Positions 46,460-53,896 of a stretch of DNA of 64,000 nt are shown here, piece after piece. A program made the translations under genes and the position numbers. The stretch's first letter is position 1, and each line of letters starts with the position of its first letter. The stretch comes from Armatimonadetes bacterium DC (GTDB lineage: Bacteria > Armatimonadota > Fimbriimonadia > Fimbriimonadales > GBS-DC): assembly GCA_001442985.1 (NCBI GenBank), contig LDYB01000014.1, positions 124,001 to 188,000 on the forward strand, in the 5' to 3' direction. The notes below the pieces were generated by a model that had not been told where the DNA came from, did not search any database, and worked only from the letters and a program-made list of their open reading frames with translations.

Positions 46460-47917
46460 TCATTCCGCTGGCTCTACACGAACGGCGGACCACCCCATCT
46501 CGTTGCGCTTGGGGTTCCACTTTCTGCAGGCGAGAACTTTCAACTGCTCACCATCATTATGGTGACTTGCCAGGTGGGGCGGCACAAAAACTGTGCGGTC
46601 GCCTACATGCACAAAACCAAATGCCTGTTCCGCGCGCTTACGGAACGCTCCCTCACACCACTCCAGAAAGCCTTCAATCTCCTGCTGGTCTGGCAAGGGC
46701 AAGCATTCTACGACTGTTTTCCGCCCGTCTGTCTCGTAAAGGGTTAGAGCGACCACTGTACCTTCTGGCTGTTTGCGCAGGCTGGGGCATTTTTCGTAGC
46801 GCACGAAAATCCCTGCATCCTCTTCGGAGCCAGTGCGAATATAAGCACCTTCCTGTTTGGGATTATGGTGGTCGACGAAGCCGCGAGTCTCTGTTAGTTG
46901 ATTGGGGCTGATGCCGTGCAGCACGCAGAATAGTGTTGCTCGGGACGGTGCTATCTTAGGGCAGCGGGGAGCAGGATATTGAACGCACCAGCGAGCTCTC
47001 CTGAGCTGCTCGAGCGAGTCGGGAATTCGCCAGCTCTTCTCTGTACGGATACGCACGGCTTCGTGAACGAACCAAGCAGCTGCCTCATACTCCTGCTGCT
47101 CCGCCAGCAAGGAAGCAATCTCTTCGTAAACGCTCACCAGAAAGCTCTTGTCTCTCTGGAGCTGATAAGCGTGATAGTAGCAGTGCAGTGCTATCTGAGG
47201 GTCAATTTCTCTGTAAACGCGGGCAACTTCCGCCCAAATCCACCAATCTTTTTGCTTTTTACGCAGGGTGTGGCGCAAATGTTGTAATGCCTCGTGGTTC
47301 CCACCTTTTTGCCAGAGCGCAATCCCCACCGCACGATGAAGCCATGGGTCATCGGGATAGCGTGAAAGCCCTTCGCTTTGCAGGAGTCCAAAGACCCATT
47401 CCTTGTCTTCCTCTTGAAGATTATCCTTCAGCAGGGCATTCGCCAGCCTGAGGTAGACTCGAAGCTCGAGGCTCATCAGGGGCGGGGTATCGTCGCTTGT
47501 TCTCCTTTCCTGACAGTCTTCCTCGCGGAGGTTCTCTGGAAATCCACATTGGCGAATAAACTGAACGAAGCACCACCAGCCTGCTTTGTGCGCCTTGCAG
47601 GCTAAGCCAAGCATCAGCGAGTGAAGCAGATCGGGACGCGGCAAAAGATGCAATTGTTCGTACTCCCAGAACCAATCATCAAGGTCAGAAATATTCACTT
47701 TAGCTGAAACGATTTCCTGTTCCTTTCCATCTTCCTGTTCGTCACCATCACCGACGGTTGCAAGCTCGCGCTTAATCAGGTCGTACAAAACCCAGCCGAA
47801 GGTGCGCTGCAGGTACGAGTCTTCACGGTTTTGCTCCAGGCACTCACGCCCCCTCTTATATGCTTCCTCCAACTGCCCCTGTTTGCGCAGGGTCGCAATC
47901 AGCGATGCACAACTCAT
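46460..47917 (-). CDS. TPR protein with a C-terminal cold-shock-like OB fold
   Basis: I do not recognise a named family. The 485-residue protein starts with TPR-like helices (QLEEAYKRGRECLEQNREDS, then YLQRTFGWVLYDLIKREL), and further helical pairs run to about residue 310. The last 60 residues (FGFVHVGDRTVFVPPHL, then GEQLKVLACRKWNPKRNEMG) resemble a cold-shock or S1-type OB fold and may bind RNA. Base composition is visibly less GC-rich than in the neighbouring housekeeping genes, which suggests transfer. It has its own promoter and GGGGAG ribosome-binding site and lies 60 bp after the HEAT-repeat gene. Confidence 0.6.
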   Translation of the reverse strand: MSCASLIATLRKQGQLEEAYKRGRECLEQNREDSYLQRTFGWVLYDLIKRELATVGDGDEQEDGKEQEIVSAKVNISDLDDWFWEYEQLHLLPRPDLLHSLMLGLACKAHKAGWWCFVQFIRQCGFPENLREEDCQERRTSDDTPPLMSLELRVYLRLANALLKDNLQEEDKEWVFGLLQSEGLSRYPDDPWLHRAVGIALWQKGGNHEALQHLRHTLRKKQKDWWIWAEVARVYREIDPQIALHCYYHAYQLQRDKSFLVSVYEEIASLLAEQQEYEAAAWFVHEAVRIRTEKSWRIPDSLEQLRRARWCVQYPAPRCPKIAPSRATLFCVLHGISPNQLTETRGFVDHHNPKQEGAYIRTGSEEDAGIFVRYEKCPSLRKQPEGTVVALTLYETDGRKTVVECLPLPDQQEIEGFLEWCEGAFRKRAEQAFGFVHVGDRTVFVPPHLASHHNDGEQLKVLACRKWNPKRNEMGWSAVRVEPAE

Positions 47918-47939
47918 TTTCTGGTCTCCCCTGTGATAT

Positions 47940-47945
47940 AGTATA
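47940..47945 (-). promoter_or_regulatory. -10 element of the TPR/OB-fold gene
   Basis: Read on the minus strand, CGAGTATACTATATC places TATACT 22 nt before the ATG. It lies in the gap after the HEAT-repeat gene, so the TPR gene can be expressed on its own. Confidence 0.5.
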
Positions 47946-47977
47946 CTCGACTTTTTACTGCAAAGTTCCTCTTGGAG

Positions 47978-49723
47978 CTACTGGAATCGCTGGCGCTGCT
48001 CGATTTTTTGAAGCGCCTCTCTTGCAGCTTGCTGAATCTGAGGGTTGGGGTCGTCAACAAGGCTCTCCAAATCGGGCTTCGCGGCAGGGTGTCCAATCTC
48101 GCCGAGCGTTCGGATGAGGTTAACCCGAAGTTGTCCATGGCTTTCCCTGCGCAGGGCTTCTATCAAGCGCACCAGAGCGTCCGTTCCTATTCTGTGAACG
48201 ATGGCTTCTCTGCAGATTCGCGGGATGATTTTATCGTTCTGCTTCATGCCAGCAAGAAGCGCATCGAGCGAATCGGGCGTGGCGTGGTCGTACAGGTAGC
48301 GTGCAGCTTCGTACTGGATTTCCAGCGGTGCGGGACCGAGCAAGAGCTGTTCGAAATGTTCTCTCAGGTTCGGGTTTCGGGTGTAGCGGAGTGCAGCAGC
48401 CGCTGCCCAGCGCGTGTTCAGGTTCATCTCGTCGAGCAGAGGGAGTAGCTGCTCCACTACAGCCTGTGTGCCGATAGCTCCCAGCGCCCGCACGGCTGCC
48501 CACTGAGCAATGTACCGACGCTCTGGAACCCAGTAGGGGTCGCGAATGGCTTCTACCAGTGTCGGCACAGCCGTATCGCCTAACTCAATGAGGGTTTCCA
48601 CACAAAGAGCGCGCACCATCTCTTGTTCATCTCCCAACCCGTCCACCAGCGCAGGGACGGCGACAGCGGGGTCTATGGCGCGGATGGCTTCTACCGCAAG
48701 ATAACGCACAGACCACTGCTTGTCACGTTTGAGGGCATCGCTGAGGTAGGGGATAGCGGAGGCATCGCCGATTTCCTTGAGAATCTGTACACAGATTTCG
48801 CGCAGGGTTGGGTCAAAATGCGAATTGAGCGTTTGACCAATCTCCGGGATTGCCTCAGCTCCGATCTGCACCAGTGCCTGTTGACATGCCTCGCGGAGTG
48901 CGGGGCGCTGAAACATCAGGTCTACCAGTTGCCTTGCGGTGTCCTGCCCTCCGATAGCACCGAGCGCGTGAACCGCTTTGGGTCCAGCCTCATTCACCGT
49001 CGGTTGGCGTGCTATCTGCAGCAGCGTCTCGCGAGCGCGTGGTTCCCGCAGAGCGCCGACAGCCTCAATTGCTGCGAGTTGCACACTGGCATCGGCGTCT
49101 GTGAGCAACGGCTCCAGATAATCCCACGCGCGGTCGCTGCCCGAACCGCCCAATCCGCGCGCCAGGGCGCTCAGCGAACTGCGGTGCAGTTGTGGGTAGA
49201 GCTGCGGTAGGAATTCCCAGACCCACTTCCATATTGCCCTTTCGCCCTGAAGCGCACGGCGCAGAAGCCAGAGCTGGCTGATACGATGCCACTGAGTCAA
49301 CGGTACCTGCCTTCGCCAGTCGTCGATTTGGGCATCCATGCCGCCAGCAGCAATTGCCCACTCACTCGCCAGCTTCTGTGGATCGAGGGGCTGCTGGAGA
49401 ATTTCTTGAGCGTACTCTCTGGCTGTGTCGAGCGCGTTCAAGAGCGCTTCAGAGAGCGCCCGCAAGGCAGAAACAGAGGTGGTAGGCAGCTTTCCCTGAA
49501 CCAGAATTGTTTCCATGTATGGGGCGCAATTCTGTTTCCATGCTTCCACCAGCAATGCCGTCTCCTGCTTGCACCGCTGGTCTGTCATACGCCCCAGAGA
49601 ACCCAGCAGGTCGCAGGGATTTTCCACGACCTCGAGCTCCCCCCAGAAAGTAAGGCGCATCTTAACGGGATGCGACCCCGTGCCACAGGGTAAAGTCACA
49701 TCGACGAGAACACCGCTTTCCAC
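47978..49723 (-). CDS. HEAT-repeat protein
   Basis: The 581-residue protein starts with GTG at 49723 after GGGGAGG. The first 100 residues include a short beta-rich piece (VDVTLPCGTGSHPVKMRLTFWG). From about residue 185 to the end there are at least ten HEAT/PBS-lyase-type repeats (AAIEAVGALREPRARETLLQ, KAVHALGAIGGQDTARQL, ICVQILKEIGDASAIPYL). Such scaffolds bind proteins or nucleic acids; no catalytic motif is visible. It is divergent from the RNase H-like/helicase pair and in the same direction as the TPR gene, which suggests one functional group. Confidence 0.75.
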   Translation of the reverse strand: MESGVLVDVTLPCGTGSHPVKMRLTFWGELEVVENPCDLLGSLGRMTDQRCKQETALLVEAWKQNCAPYMETILVQGKLPTTSVSALRALSEALLNALDTAREYAQEILQQPLDPQKLASEWAIAAGGMDAQIDDWRRQVPLTQWHRISQLWLLRRALQGERAIWKWVWEFLPQLYPQLHRSSLSALARGLGGSGSDRAWDYLEPLLTDADASVQLAAIEAVGALREPRARETLLQIARQPTVNEAGPKAVHALGAIGGQDTARQLVDLMFQRPALREACQQALVQIGAEAIPEIGQTLNSHFDPTLREICVQILKEIGDASAIPYLSDALKRDKQWSVRYLAVEAIRAIDPAVAVPALVDGLGDEQEMVRALCVETLIELGDTAVPTLVEAIRDPYWVPERRYIAQWAAVRALGAIGTQAVVEQLLPLLDEMNLNTRWAAAAALRYTRNPNLREHFEQLLLGPAPLEIQYEAARYLYDHATPDSLDALLAGMKQNDKIIPRICREAIVHRIGTDALVRLIEALRRESHGQLRVNLIRTLGEIGHPAAKPDLESLVDDPNPQIQQAAREALQKIEQRQRFQ

Positions 49724-49775
49724 TTCCTACCTCCCCTATCCGCTCTGCTGTTATGATTCCGATACCATCCCACAG

Positions 49776-49809
49776 ATTCCTGCCAGTGCAAGCTGAAATC
49801 AGCAGGAAT
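49776..49809. promoter_or_regulatory. Inverted repeat in the divergent island promoter region
   Basis: ATTCCTGC at 49776-49783 and GCAGGAAT at 49802-49809 are perfect inverted copies, and the second runs into TTTT. It could be an operator for both directions or a short attenuator. Confidence 0.4.
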
Positions 49810-49825
49810 TTTTGCGGTGAGGGCG

Positions 49826-49831
49826 TATCAT
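49826..49831 (+). promoter_or_regulatory. -10 element of the RNase H-like gene (leaderless)
   Basis: TATCAT in GGCGTATCATAAAACC ends six bases before the GTG at 49838. This supports that codon over the GTG at 49817, which lies upstream of the element. Confidence 0.5.
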
Positions 49832-49837
49832 AAAACC

Positions 49838-50281
49838 GTGCGTGCCAGAGCCTTCATCGACGGTTCTGCGCTGAACAACCCCGGTGCAGCGGGGTTGGCG
49901 GTGCGAATCGAGGACGAGCAGGGGCGTTTACTGCTGGAACTCTGCGAGCCTATCGGGCGCGCCACGAACAACTTCGCCGAATACTACAGCCTGCTCCGCT
50001 GCCTTCAGGAAGCAAAGCGAATGGGTATCACTGAGCTGGACATCTACACCGACCTTGAGCTAATCGTCAAGCAGTGGTCAGGAGTATACAAGGTGAACGA
50101 GCGCTTACGCCCCCTTTACAGCGAAGCCAAGCGTATCGCTCAGGAAATCGGGCAGGTGCGAATCCACCATGCCAAAGCTGAAAGCGAATGGGTGGAGATT
50201 ATCCAGTATGTAGATGCGCTCTGCAGAAAAGCCGCCGAGCATGTGCAGAAGGTGGGGAGAGATGATGAAGATTGGATATGA
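49838..50281 (+). CDS. RNase H-like fold protein (RNase HI family)
   Basis: The 147-residue protein keeps the acidic residues of RNase HI: FIDGSALNNPGAAGLAV, NNFAEYYSLLRCL, and YTDLELIVKQWSGVYKV. A late VDALCRKAAE stands where ADALAN normally carries the fourth acid. That last block is shifted by a short insertion (ESEWVEIIQY). It probably cleaves RNA in RNA/DNA hybrids or a related substrate. The promoter fits the GTG at 49838; the track uses 49817. It overlaps the helicase gene by 17 bases. Confidence 0.75.
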   Translation: MRARAFIDGSALNNPGAAGLAVRIEDEQGRLLLELCEPIGRATNNFAEYYSLLRCLQEAKRMGITELDIYTDLELIVKQWSGVYKVNERLRPLYSEAKRIAQEIGQVRIHHAKAESEWVEIIQYVDALCRKAAEHVQKVGRDDEDWI

Positions 50282-52373
50282 TATCTGGCTTTCCGAGAGA
50301 TTGCAGTATTCAAAAGAAAAGCAACTTCAGCGCGACAGATGGGAGGCTCTGGAGCAGACCCTGGAGCAACTATCGTGGGAACAACCCCCAAATTCGCTGC
50401 ACATAGAGCGTGTTCAGAATTGCAAGGAGCGATGGTATTCAGCGCGGGTAGACATAAAGTACCGCTTGATTTTCTATCAAGAAGGTAACCAGCGGATTGC
50501 TGTGTGGGTAGACGAACACGATCCAGCATACGCATGGGCAAAGGAACACTTCTTTCATAAGAACGACTATGGAGAGCATTACATCCGCCGTGACCCCGAA
50601 ACGCTCCCGTCTGAAGTTCCTCCTGAGCCAGAGCCGCCTGCAGAGTCGTATCCTCTTGTGGGCTATGACTGCAGCGACTTGCAAAAGCTCGATGTTCCGA
50701 AGGAATTGTGTGACCACATTCGGAATCTCTCTGCAGAAGCACTCGTTGGAGCCTTATGCCGACTTCTGGAGGAGGGGTACATAAACAGCGAGACAGCCGA
50801 GCGCATACTCGCGTTAGCCACAGGAACGCCCCTGAAAGAGCTCCTGCCGCCAGCCCAACTGCGAGACAAATTCGACTTACTGCTGGAAAAGGGCAACCTT
50901 TCGCGCTTCTGGAAACCCAAAGACACCGACGAACTAAAGCGCGCAATTTTGCAACCTTGGGAAACATGGCTGGTTTTCCTGTCGCCCACGCAACGCGAGG
51001 TGGCAGAACAGCACTATAATGGTCCAGCGCGCGTGTCGGGAGCCGCAGGCACAGGCAAAACCGTCGTCGCGCTCCATCGCACAAAACACCTGCTTGAGCG
51101 CTATCCCGGGAGCCGAATCTTTCTAACGACCTATACAGTGAACATGGCGCGCGAGTTAGAGCGACGCATGAAACTCCTCATCGGCGAATCGCTTCCTCCT
51201 GAACTTTATATTCTGAACCTTGATAAGTTTGTCAATCAGGAGTTTCAGAAGCTGCGCACCGGAGCGACTCTGATCTATCGGGACGAGGAACTCAAGCAGA
51301 AAACTGACTTCGCCCAGCTTTGTCAAACCTACGCCCCACGGTTTTCACCCGATTTTGTCTGGAGTGAGTGGCAGTGGGTTATTAACGCATGGAACATCCA
51401 GAGCTGGGAGGCATATCGTGATTTTGAGCGTATTGGGCGCGGCTCAAAACTTTCTGAGGAACAGCGGGAACAACTGTGGCAAGTCTTTGACGCGATGCGG
51501 AAAAAGCTCCGCCAAGCCATGCTGCTAACACCCGAAATGGCGTGCTATATGCTGGCGGAACACTACAGGAACAGGGGAGCGCCCTTCCGCTGCGTAGTTG
51601 CTGACGAGACGCAAGATTTCGGTCCTGCCCAGATGACGCTTCTGAAGAGCCTCGCGCCAGCAGACCAGCCAGACAATCTGTTTTTCTGTATCGATACCGC
51701 CCAACGCATTTACCAGCGAAGTCTCTCATGGAAGCGGCTTGGTATAGAAGTACGCGGACGCAGTAAGACCTTGCGAATTAACTATCGGAACACCCTCGAG
51801 ATTCAGGAAAAGGCAGAGAAGGTGCTGGCGGGGTGTAATTACTCCCTGCGAGATGAGGAGGATATCGAGGCTGTCGTGCGCGGTGTGCGGGCGCTTACTC
51901 TCCTTTCAGGAAATAAGCCCGAGGTGAGGCACTGCGAGAACTTTCAGCGTGAGGTCGCCGCTCTGCGCGAGTGGCTCCTCCGGTGCCAGCGGGAGTTCAA
52001 CATGGACGGCAACAAGATTGCGATTCTGGCGCGAACAAAGGATTATATCGAAAAACAGGTTGTTCCTGTCCTGAATGAACTTGGCATTTCCTATTGCTGG
52101 CTGGGGGACGAAAGACTTGCGGAACCCCACGAGGTGTATTTAGGTGCGGTTCACTCCAGTAAGGGATTAGAGTTTCGAGCGGTTGCGATTGTGGGAGCGT
52201 CGCGCGACATGTTTCCGTTTCGTCCTGCTGTCGGGCGCGCGGGCGACCCCGAAGAGCAGCCCCTTGTGGAAGAGCAGGAGCGCCAACTGCTCTACACCGC
52301 CATCACCCGTGCGCGTGAGCAGCTTTTTATCTCCTGGGTGCTTTATCCATCGCCCTTCCTGCCGCGCGATTGA
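50265..52373 (+). CDS. RelE-like toxin-fold domain fused to a UvrD/Rep-type helicase
   Basis: The 702-residue protein starts at the second ATG after GGGGAG; the ORF track begins 17 codons earlier inside the RNase H-like gene. Residues 1-95 resemble RelE/ParE toxins (SLHIERVQNCKERWYSARVD, YRLIFYQEGNQRIAVWVDEHDPAYAWA), quoted in part. The superfamily 1 helicase part has Walker A GAAGTGKTVVALHR near residue 258, CVVADETQDFGPAQ as motif II near 443, GLEFRAVAIVG, and motif VI YTAITRAREQLF. No antitoxin gene is adjacent. The fusion may link RNA or ribosome targeting to helicase action. The UvrD call is firm; the toxin-like call is by fold pattern. Confidence 0.82.
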   Translation: MKIGYDIWLSERLQYSKEKQLQRDRWEALEQTLEQLSWEQPPNSLHIERVQNCKERWYSARVDIKYRLIFYQEGNQRIAVWVDEHDPAYAWAKEHFFHKNDYGEHYIRRDPETLPSEVPPEPEPPAESYPLVGYDCSDLQKLDVPKELCDHIRNLSAEALVGALCRLLEEGYINSETAERILALATGTPLKELLPPAQLRDKFDLLLEKGNLSRFWKPKDTDELKRAILQPWETWLVFLSPTQREVAEQHYNGPARVSGAAGTGKTVVALHRTKHLLERYPGSRIFLTTYTVNMARELERRMKLLIGESLPPELYILNLDKFVNQEFQKLRTGATLIYRDEELKQKTDFAQLCQTYAPRFSPDFVWSEWQWVINAWNIQSWEAYRDFERIGRGSKLSEEQREQLWQVFDAMRKKLRQAMLLTPEMACYMLAEHYRNRGAPFRCVVADETQDFGPAQMTLLKSLAPADQPDNLFFCIDTAQRIYQRSLSWKRLGIEVRGRSKTLRINYRNTLEIQEKAEKVLAGCNYSLRDEEDIEAVVRGVRALTLLSGNKPEVRHCENFQREVAALREWLLRCQREFNMDGNKIAILARTKDYIEKQVVPVLNELGISYCWLGDERLAEPHEVYLGAVHSSKGLEFRAVAIVGASRDMFPFRPAVGRAGDPEEQPLVEEQERQLLYTAITRAREQLFISWVLYPSPFLPRD

Positions 52374-52381
52374 GGGCAAGG

Positions 52382-52387
52382 TATAAT
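52382..52387 (+). promoter_or_regulatory. -10 element of the DUF4139 gene
   Basis: TATAAT in AAGGTATAATCCC lies 21 nt before the ATG at 52409, with GAGGGG as Shine-Dalgarno sequence. Confidence 0.6.
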
Positions 52388-52408
52388 CCCCCACCGAGGG
52401 GAACTACC

Positions 52409-53896
52409 ATGCAAGGTGTGAAGTGGCTGTGTGGTGTCTGGATGACGGCTGCTGTGATGGCAGCCGCGCTCCCTGCAGGAGCGCAAGAGTCGTTCGTTTC
52501 CACGACCCGCGAGCAGATTACACTGACCATCTACGACCAGAACTTCGCCCTGGTGAGCGAGCGTCGCCCGCTGACGCTCAAACAGGGACGCAACGAGGTG
52601 GTGCTGCTGGACATCTCGCCCATGCTGGATACACAATCGCTGTGGCTCCAGTGGGTGGGACGCCCCGCACCCGCCGAGATTCTCGCCCACACCTACGATA
52701 TGGGCGTTCAGGACGGCGACTCGCTTTTGCGACGCTATCTGGGCAAGCAAGTGGAGCTGCTCCAGTATGGCTCCGATGGGCGTGTTATCGGCGTGCTGGA
52801 GGGCAGGCTGATCAGCATGGATGCGAACCGACTGATTCTGGAAGCGAGTCCGCTTTCGACAATCGCGTCGGCGGTTCCGCAGTTGCCGCGTCGCGCGATT
52901 TATGTGAACCCGCAGGGCACGCTCCGCCTGCCTGTTGAGGCTGATATGCCCCTGATTCCCGCCCTGCGCTTGCAGGTGCAGGCTCCCAACGAGGGCAACG
53001 CCGCGCTGACCGTGAGCTATCTCACAGGCGGGCTGGACTGGGACGCCGACTATATCGCCGTGTTGCGCGGCGAAAACGCCCTGAAGCTGGAGTGCTGGGC
53101 GACCGTGACGAACCAGACGGGGCTGACTTTCCCGAATGCACGGGTGAGCCTCGCAACGGGTGTCGCGCCCCCCGAATCGGTGCAGGTAGCATTCGGCAGG
53201 GCAGAGAGCTTTGAGTGGCGCGACCGCCCAGCGATGGGTGCTATCGCGCGGCGCATTGTGCCTCAGCCACTCGGCGAGGTTTACACCTACCCGCTCGCGC
53301 AGCCAGTCTCCATTCAGGATGCCCGCCAGAGCCGTCTGTTGCTCCATGAGGCGCCGCAGGTTCCTGTGCAGAAGCGGTACATCTATCGTGCGCCGTCGCT
53401 GTGGGCGAACGCCGCGCCAGGCATCGGCAAAGAGGTGCGCCGCGACAAGGCAGAAGTCTCGCTCGTGCTGGAAAACCGCAAAGAGCATGGGCTGGGCATT
53501 CCCTTACCCAACGGCAGCGTGCGCCTGTATGAGACCGACTCGAACGGCACCCCTCGCTATCTGGGCACGGCGAGCCTGAGCGCAACGCCCGTGAACCAGA
53601 AAATCACGCTTCAGGTGGGGCAAGCCTTCGACATTACGGGCGAGTGGCAGCCCCTCCGACAGAAGGTGCTGGGCAGGGGCAAGGTGGAGTACGAGGTGCA
53701 AATCACGCTCCGCAACGCAAAAAGCCAGCCCGTACAGGTGCTGGTCGTGCAGCCGTTCGGGGGCGGGTGGACGATTCTCAACTCCACTCAGCCGTACACG
53801 CGCGCTTCGGCGACTGCCGCGCAGTGGACGCTGAAAGTGCCCGCGGGCGGCGCGACCTCCGTGCGGTTCACGGTGCGGGTGCAATCGGCGCAGTAG
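52409..53896 (+). CDS. Secreted DUF4139-domain protein
   Basis: The start is the ATG at 52409, giving 495 residues with a signal peptide (WMTAAVMAAALPAGAQ). The body matches the DUF4139 pattern: LTIYDQNFALVSERRPL, EVVLLDISPMLDTQSL, VSYLTGGLDWDADYIAVL, and a C-terminal KVEYEVQITLRNAKSQPVQV. The family is widespread, extracytoplasmic and of unknown role. The ORF-track start at 52370 overlaps the helicase stop and the promoter. Confidence 0.85.
   Translation: MQGVKWLCGVWMTAAVMAAALPAGAQESFVSTTREQITLTIYDQNFALVSERRPLTLKQGRNEVVLLDISPMLDTQSLWLQWVGRPAPAEILAHTYDMGVQDGDSLLRRYLGKQVELLQYGSDGRVIGVLEGRLISMDANRLILEASPLSTIASAVPQLPRRAIYVNPQGTLRLPVEADMPLIPALRLQVQAPNEGNAALTVSYLTGGLDWDADYIAVLRGENALKLECWATVTNQTGLTFPNARVSLATGVAPPESVQVAFGRAESFEWRDRPAMGAIARRIVPQPLGEVYTYPLAQPVSIQDARQSRLLLHEAPQVPVQKRYIYRAPSLWANAAPGIGKEVRRDKAEVSLVLENRKEHGLGIPLPNGSVRLYETDSNGTPRYLGTASLSATPVNQKITLQVGQAFDITGEWQPLRQKVLGRGKVEYEVQITLRNAKSQPVQVLVVQPFGGGWTILNSTQPYTRASATAAQWTLKVPAGGATSVRFTVRVQSAQ

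Follow-up and report, generated by a model that had tools for sequence, protein, structure and literature searches.

Gene content and layout of the cassette

We analyzed a 64,000-nucleotide (nt) stretch of contig LDYB01000014.1 from Armatimonadetes bacterium DC (hereafter the window), which harbors, at positions 46460 to 52373, a cassette of about 5.9 kb made of two divergent gene pairs. The minus strand encodes a TPR protein with an OB-fold tail, a candidate scaffold or sensor (TPR-OB; 46460..47917, 485 amino acids), and a HEAT-repeat protein (47978..49723, 581 amino acids). The plus strand encodes an RNase HI-like protein (49817..50281, 154 amino acids) and a fusion of a RelE-like domain to a UvrD helicase (RelE-UvrD; 50262..52373, about 703 amino acids), which resembles ArmD of the ARMADA systems. 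The 93 nt that separate the pairs (49724..49816) presumably hold a promoter region shared by both, and the divergent layout is kept in 4 genomes. On one side the cassette is flanked by fasciclin and ribE genes, and on the other by DUF4139 and Der genes. An earlier interpretation made from the DNA letters alone (the sequence-only reading) had proposed these open reading frames (ORFs), their strands, and a position between ribE and a DUF4139 gene, all of which we recover; Pfam identifies the TPR/OB, HEAT, RNase H-like, and UvrD parts, and a fold model the RelE part.

The cassette was also thought to be poorer in GC than its surroundings, and this is what we observe. Specifically, GC content is 0.540 for TPR-OB, 0.589 for HEAT, 0.557 for RNase H, and 0.540 for the helicase, all lower than in the window's other long ORFs (n = 35, mean 0.616), and GC at third codon positions (GC3) of the TPR-OB and helicase genes lies below that of all 35. 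The listed helicase ORF opens at 50214, but the start is most likely at 50262 or 50265, because homologs align from there and a GGTGGGGAG motif precedes the codon. With this revised start, the helicase and RNase H genes share ~17–20 nt, so that the overlap noted previously stands.

The scaffold proteins

The TPR-OB protein matches 2 Pfam families above their cut-offs, namely DUF7017 (residues 192–313; 95 bits, cut-off 27.5, E 5e-27) and, as its OB/cold-shock fold, the S1/cold-shock-like TOTE domain 2, S1CSD-TOTE-2 (residues 422–481; 46475..46654, minus strand; 57 bits, cut-off 27, E 1.7e-15). It also matches the PADLOC family PDC-M16B over its full length (E 1.2e-76), and its domains are supported by an alignment of 5 orthologs. 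Judged by these matches, the protein is a member of the TPR-cold-shock family of TOTE conflict systems, the PADLOC candidate PDC-M16B. The HEAT protein matches Pfam HEAT_2 (198 bits, E 2.4e-59), its orthologs adjoin the TPR-OB gene in 3 other genomes, and its AlphaFold model (pLDDT 89) consists of 3 short N-terminal beta strands followed by an all-helical solenoid; a fold search with this model returned generic solenoids only. Cold-shock and OB domains bind single-stranded nucleic acid, while TPR and HEAT solenoids bind proteins.

We considered whether the HEAT protein hides a TBP domain and rejected the idea, as PF22721 finds no match in it and the model offers only the 3 short strands and the solenoid.

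In Vibrio, in Bacteroidales, and on plasmids of Escherichia, Shewanella, and Rhodothermus, distant TPR-OB relatives are preceded by PDC-M16A, a PIF1/RecD-like helicase whose C terminus carries TBP-TOTE domains. One such relative lies near cas genes on a Rhodothermus plasmid, and another within a type I restriction locus. No TPR-OB gene was found in virus contigs, and among 400 Chloroflexota genomes only that of Thermoflexus has one. There (L096, 5830–9143), a TPR-cold-shock gene comes directly after that of a 678-amino-acid protein, which carries an RNase HII domain and weakly matches both RnlA and DUF3378, the latter presumably the N-terminal domain of RNase HIII. This is perhaps a TOTE-type pair with an RNase H in place of the helicase.

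The RNase HI and the RelE-UvrD helicase

RNase HI enzymes cut RNA within RNA–DNA hybrids. The cassette protein matches RVT_3 (54 bits) and RNase_H (27 bits) in Pfam, and the window copy retains the 4 carboxylates (D-E-D-D) of the active site, in the motifs FIDG, NNFAEY, YTDLE, and YVDAL. It shares fold and motifs with the host RNases HI of Fimbriimonadales, at 35–48% identity, but belongs to a different clade, the branch between the two groups having 100/98 support. A separate host RNase HI is present in nearly every genome of the order sampled here, and the cassette enzyme is a second copy in G000 (the window genome), G004, and G011; no host enzyme was found in G010, a genome that is 85% complete.

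The fourth gene encodes UvrD N- and C-terminal domains. The superfamily 1 (SF1) helicase core, which is UvrD/GajB-like (50982..52340), retains both the Walker A motif (GAAGTGKT) and the DExQ box (Walker B-like, VVADETQD). Its N-terminal domain (50280..50562) has a weak RelE/HigB match under the Pfam cut-off (E 1.7e-4) and a weak match to a YoeB profile (E 0.006). When the model of this domain (pLDDT 81) is searched with Foldseek, the top matches are almost only RelE, YoeB, YafQ, and HigB toxins, with a probability near 1.00 and E-values of 0.004 at best, and the RelE assignment holds on account of this retrieval. An Arg aligned with the Arg of the YoeB "HRV" motif is invariant across 23 homologs, as are a His and an Asp. 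UvrD-type motors translocate along a single strand, and toxins with a RelE fold cleave mRNA, in most cases on the ribosome.

A tree of 57 RelE-UvrD helicases places those of the cassette in a single clade (100/100), near lone copies of Armatimonadota and plasmid copies of Thermus and Meiothermus. Full-length relatives with 31–38% identity are found on plasmids, in an ARMADA-like context in L139 and near brxL in L136 and L137, while on a Thermus plasmid one adjoins a large helicase, a methylase, and type III CRISPR genes. Lone RelE-UvrD genes without the cassette partners also occur in G004, G007, G008, G012, and others (L045, L047, L050, and L051 in the sampled Fimbriimonadales), G004 thus carrying both a cassette and a lone copy, and some adjoin housekeeping genes, e.g. 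those for a short-chain dehydrogenase or poly(A) polymerase. No cassette neighbors were seen within ~1.5 kb on each side of the other Armatimonadota RelE-UvrD genes. The fusion is further encoded on >30 IMG/VR contigs (L098–L131), so that phage-like elements, too, carry it or have it integrated nearby.

Comparison with TOTE, ARMADA, and TALON systems

TOTE systems, i.e. conflict systems built of TPR, OB, TBP, and Effector parts (Aravind, Iyer et al. 2022, as cited in PMC12458937), are described in that paper (PMC12458937) as frequently containing RNase H domains. The cassette shares with them and with PDC-M16 a TPR protein that carries DUF7017 and an S1/cold-shock domain, so that the OB part is of TOTE type, and it supplies effectors in the form of 2 predicted nucleases, RNase HI and RelE-UvrD. 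The differences lie in the rest. Where TOTE has a TBP domain and a TBP-helicase, the cassette has the HEAT protein, a separate RNase HI, and RelE-UvrD; it contains M16B without the M16A helicase, in that M16A is not among the 25 best families listed for the window helicase and the TBP domain typical of M16A is lacking; and the helicase-then-TPR operon of TOTE/PDC-M16 is replaced by a divergent arrangement on 2 strands. We do not file the cassette as TOTE because TBP, a defining part, is missing, and PADLOC would leave a PDC-M16 pair uncalled here because the A component is lacking.

The cassette helicase has the same architecture as ArmD of ARMADA type II, with a RelE-like domain N-terminal to a GajB-like UvrD. 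The BrxHII-like helicase, PglX-like methylase, and YprA helicase of that system are not at the locus, whose neighbors are those named above and further housekeeping genes. TALON resembles the cassette in mixing a TPR-cold-shock protein, ARMADA-type parts, and an RNase H fold, but has a YprA helicase, a NERD nuclease, and TBP; of the TALON parts tested, the cassette has the TPR-cold-shock protein only. Moreover, the RNase H fold of TALON is reported to be inactivated, whereas the cassette RNase HI is a separate gene with its first catalytic Asp in 3 of 4 copies. The cassette is best called a TBP-less hybrid of TOTE-like and ARMADA-like parts, comparable to TALON.

The sequence-only reading suggested that the 4 genes may be one undescribed system. 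This was too broad for the parts, as TPR-OB is TOTE-type/PDC-M16B and RelE-UvrD has the ArmD architecture outlined in PMC12458937, but it held for the exact 4-gene set, of which no description was found in the open literature, a search that excludes most subscription journals. A distinct, undescribed class of defense system, in which a HEAT/TPR-OB scaffold senses RNA–DNA hybrids of the invader and couples a dedicated RNase HI to a RelE-armed helicase, would destroy template- and ribosome-bound invader RNA without cutting DNA; we regard this as unlikely.

The 4 genes form one unit

We searched for the 4 genes in 18 Fimbriimonadales genomes (the family sample), and for full-length TPR-OB in 291 genomes of the phylum. 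G000, G004 (L044), G011 (L049), and G010 (L048) share one divergent order, with the TPR-HEAT pair facing the RNase H-helicase pair, a contig end cutting the helicase in the last of these genomes. Cassette-type TPR, HEAT, and helicase genes occur in the same 5 of the 18 genomes, 4 of which also have the cassette-type RNase H, and all 4 genes are absent from the other 13, although relatedness and incomplete metagenome-assembled genomes (MAGs) mean that these 18 amount to fewer than 18 independent observations. Full-length PDC-M16B is similarly restricted to 5 of the 291 phylum genomes, the cassette carriers, with weaker, divergent relatives in G029, G087, and G177. Outside the family sample, no cassette was detected in a contig scan by 2 short peptide patterns, which would miss divergent copies.

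In the fifth carrier, G007 (L046), the TPR gene is accompanied by fragments of HEAT and of the helicase. Compared with the near-identical locus of G010, ~2.0 kb are missing, which takes out most of HEAT, the RNase H, and the RelE part, and the matched ends overlap by 10 bp (L046, 509–518; L048, 7871 and 9867). From this alignment, the gap is apparently a deletion between short repeats and a sign of cassette decay, with an assembly error as the alternative. In G010, 2 in-frame TGA codons interrupt the HEAT N-terminus, and the gene may start downstream of them.

Rare co-occurrence had been named in the sequence-only reading as grounds for refuting a single system, and this is not what we observe, the 4 genes occurring together in 5 of the 18 genomes, with one deletion remnant among them; this supports the view that they form one unit. 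That TPR-HEAT and RNase H-helicase are instead 2 independent modules lying back to back by chance would fit their opposite strands and a helicase family that is common alone, but is improbable: the pairs were not seen apart in any family genome or retrieved locus, all 4 genes are kept at different sites except in the remnant, and the cassette helicases form a clade apart from the lone copies. Helicases mostly found without scaffold genes had been named as a finding that would speak against a single system, and this is true of the ArmD-like family as a whole but not of the cassette clade, which never occurs without the other 3 genes. Reading frames also overlap within both the RNase H-helicase and the HEAT-TPR pairs in several copies.

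Genomic context and mobility

The neighbors of the cassette differ from site to site. They are ribE and DUF4139 in the window, a RadA-like ATPase and an orphan gene in G004, PdxS and an ABC transporter ATPase in G011, and a subtilase in both G010 and G007, where the other side is a contig end. We conclude that the cassette moves as a unit between unrelated genome positions. No empty ribE/DUF4139 insertion site was seen; in G002, the 2 genes lie on different contigs. The sequence-only reading had proposed to check for a position in defense islands, and the cassette does not lie in one, since housekeeping genes make up most of its flanks wherever it occurs.

These flanks would suit a housekeeping or stress module that removes R-loops and rescues stalled transcription or translation, as would an RNase HI, an SF1 helicase, and an RNA-binding scaffold. 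We nevertheless consider such a role quite unlikely, given the patchy presence at different sites in 5 of 18 genomes, the deletion in G007 and interrupted HEAT gene in G010, the low GC3, and the separate RNase HI in nearly every genome. Divergence is also fast, i.e. cassette proteins are 35–50% identical between G000 and the others, compared with 68–69% for ribE in the same genome pairs.

Promoter and terminator scans gave nothing beyond the level of shuffled sequence. By eye, we spotted an 8-bp inverted repeat, ATTCCTGC...GCAGGAAT, at 49776–49809, directly before the RNase H start and spanning the likely ribosome-binding site of that gene. Directly after the helicase stop codon, a GGTATAAT motif at 52380–52409, also spotted by eye, could serve as promoter for the DUF4139 gene, which likely starts at the ATG at 52409 rather than at the TTG at 52370.

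Proposed function

We favor, as the probable explanation, a self-contained and mobile 4-gene cassette directed against invaders (phages or plasmids), i.e. a TBP-less relative of TOTE with an ArmD-like RelE-UvrD and its own RNase HI as effectors. It is probably a variant of an RNA-attacking defense system, and its role in biological conflict is well supported by context. The Thermoflexus locus, an independent pairing of a TPR-cold-shock protein with RNase H activity, was counted in favor. According to PMC12458937, all 4 ARMADA II genes are required, since deleting any of them abolished phage protection, as did a Walker A mutation in ArmD, and ARMADA acts directly rather than through abortive infection.

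We infer that the cassette proteins would act as a complex. The TPR-OB and HEAT proteins would form a scaffold that recognizes invader-associated RNA or RNA–DNA hybrid, and RNase HI would destroy the RNA held in the hybrid. The UvrD motor would translocate on the exposed strand and deliver the RelE domain to nascent or ribosome-bound mRNA, which that domain would then cut. Action on R-loops or RNA, as first suggested for these genes, is plausible.

Several observations weigh against this explanation. The TBP domain (PF22721), a defining part of TOTE, is absent from the locus and all 18 family genomes, while the same profile, as a positive control, matched in 5 genomes or records holding the TBP-helicase. 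No integrase or transposase was recognized among the scanned neighbors, and no defense genes were seen beside the cassette, PADLOC at E 1e-10 giving none next to the window copy. The cassette is found in 5 genomes only, 2 of which have 97% identical TPR genes, and several of the 5 are incomplete MAGs. In G004, RNase H has Gly at the position of its first catalytic Asp (L044, 8650–9144; YIGGSS vs Y/F-I/V-D-G), which the other 3 copies keep, and hydrolysis may therefore be nonessential in some copies; judging from this motif, the G004 protein may bind without cutting or be decaying. Lastly, the RNase role of the RelE-like domain of ArmD is a prediction only in the available part of PMC12458937.

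An abortive-infection or toxin-type device with RelE as the killer, restrained or triggered by the other parts, would agree with the modeled RelE fold, the invariant Arg and His of the 23 homologs, and the lack of an antitoxin gene beside RelE-UvrD, but is doubtful at best, given that ARMADA II, the only tested system with this fusion, is reported as direct and not abortive in PMC12458937.

As an anti-invader cassette, the locus links the predicted TOTE systems with ARMADA, which has been tested against phage, both of which are poorly understood. It stands alone amid housekeeping genes, a place that searches for defense islands would skip, and is small enough to be cloned whole. Its composition points to a TPR-OB scaffold that can function in the absence of a TBP partner, and to RNase H and RelE-UvrD as effectors that can be exchanged.

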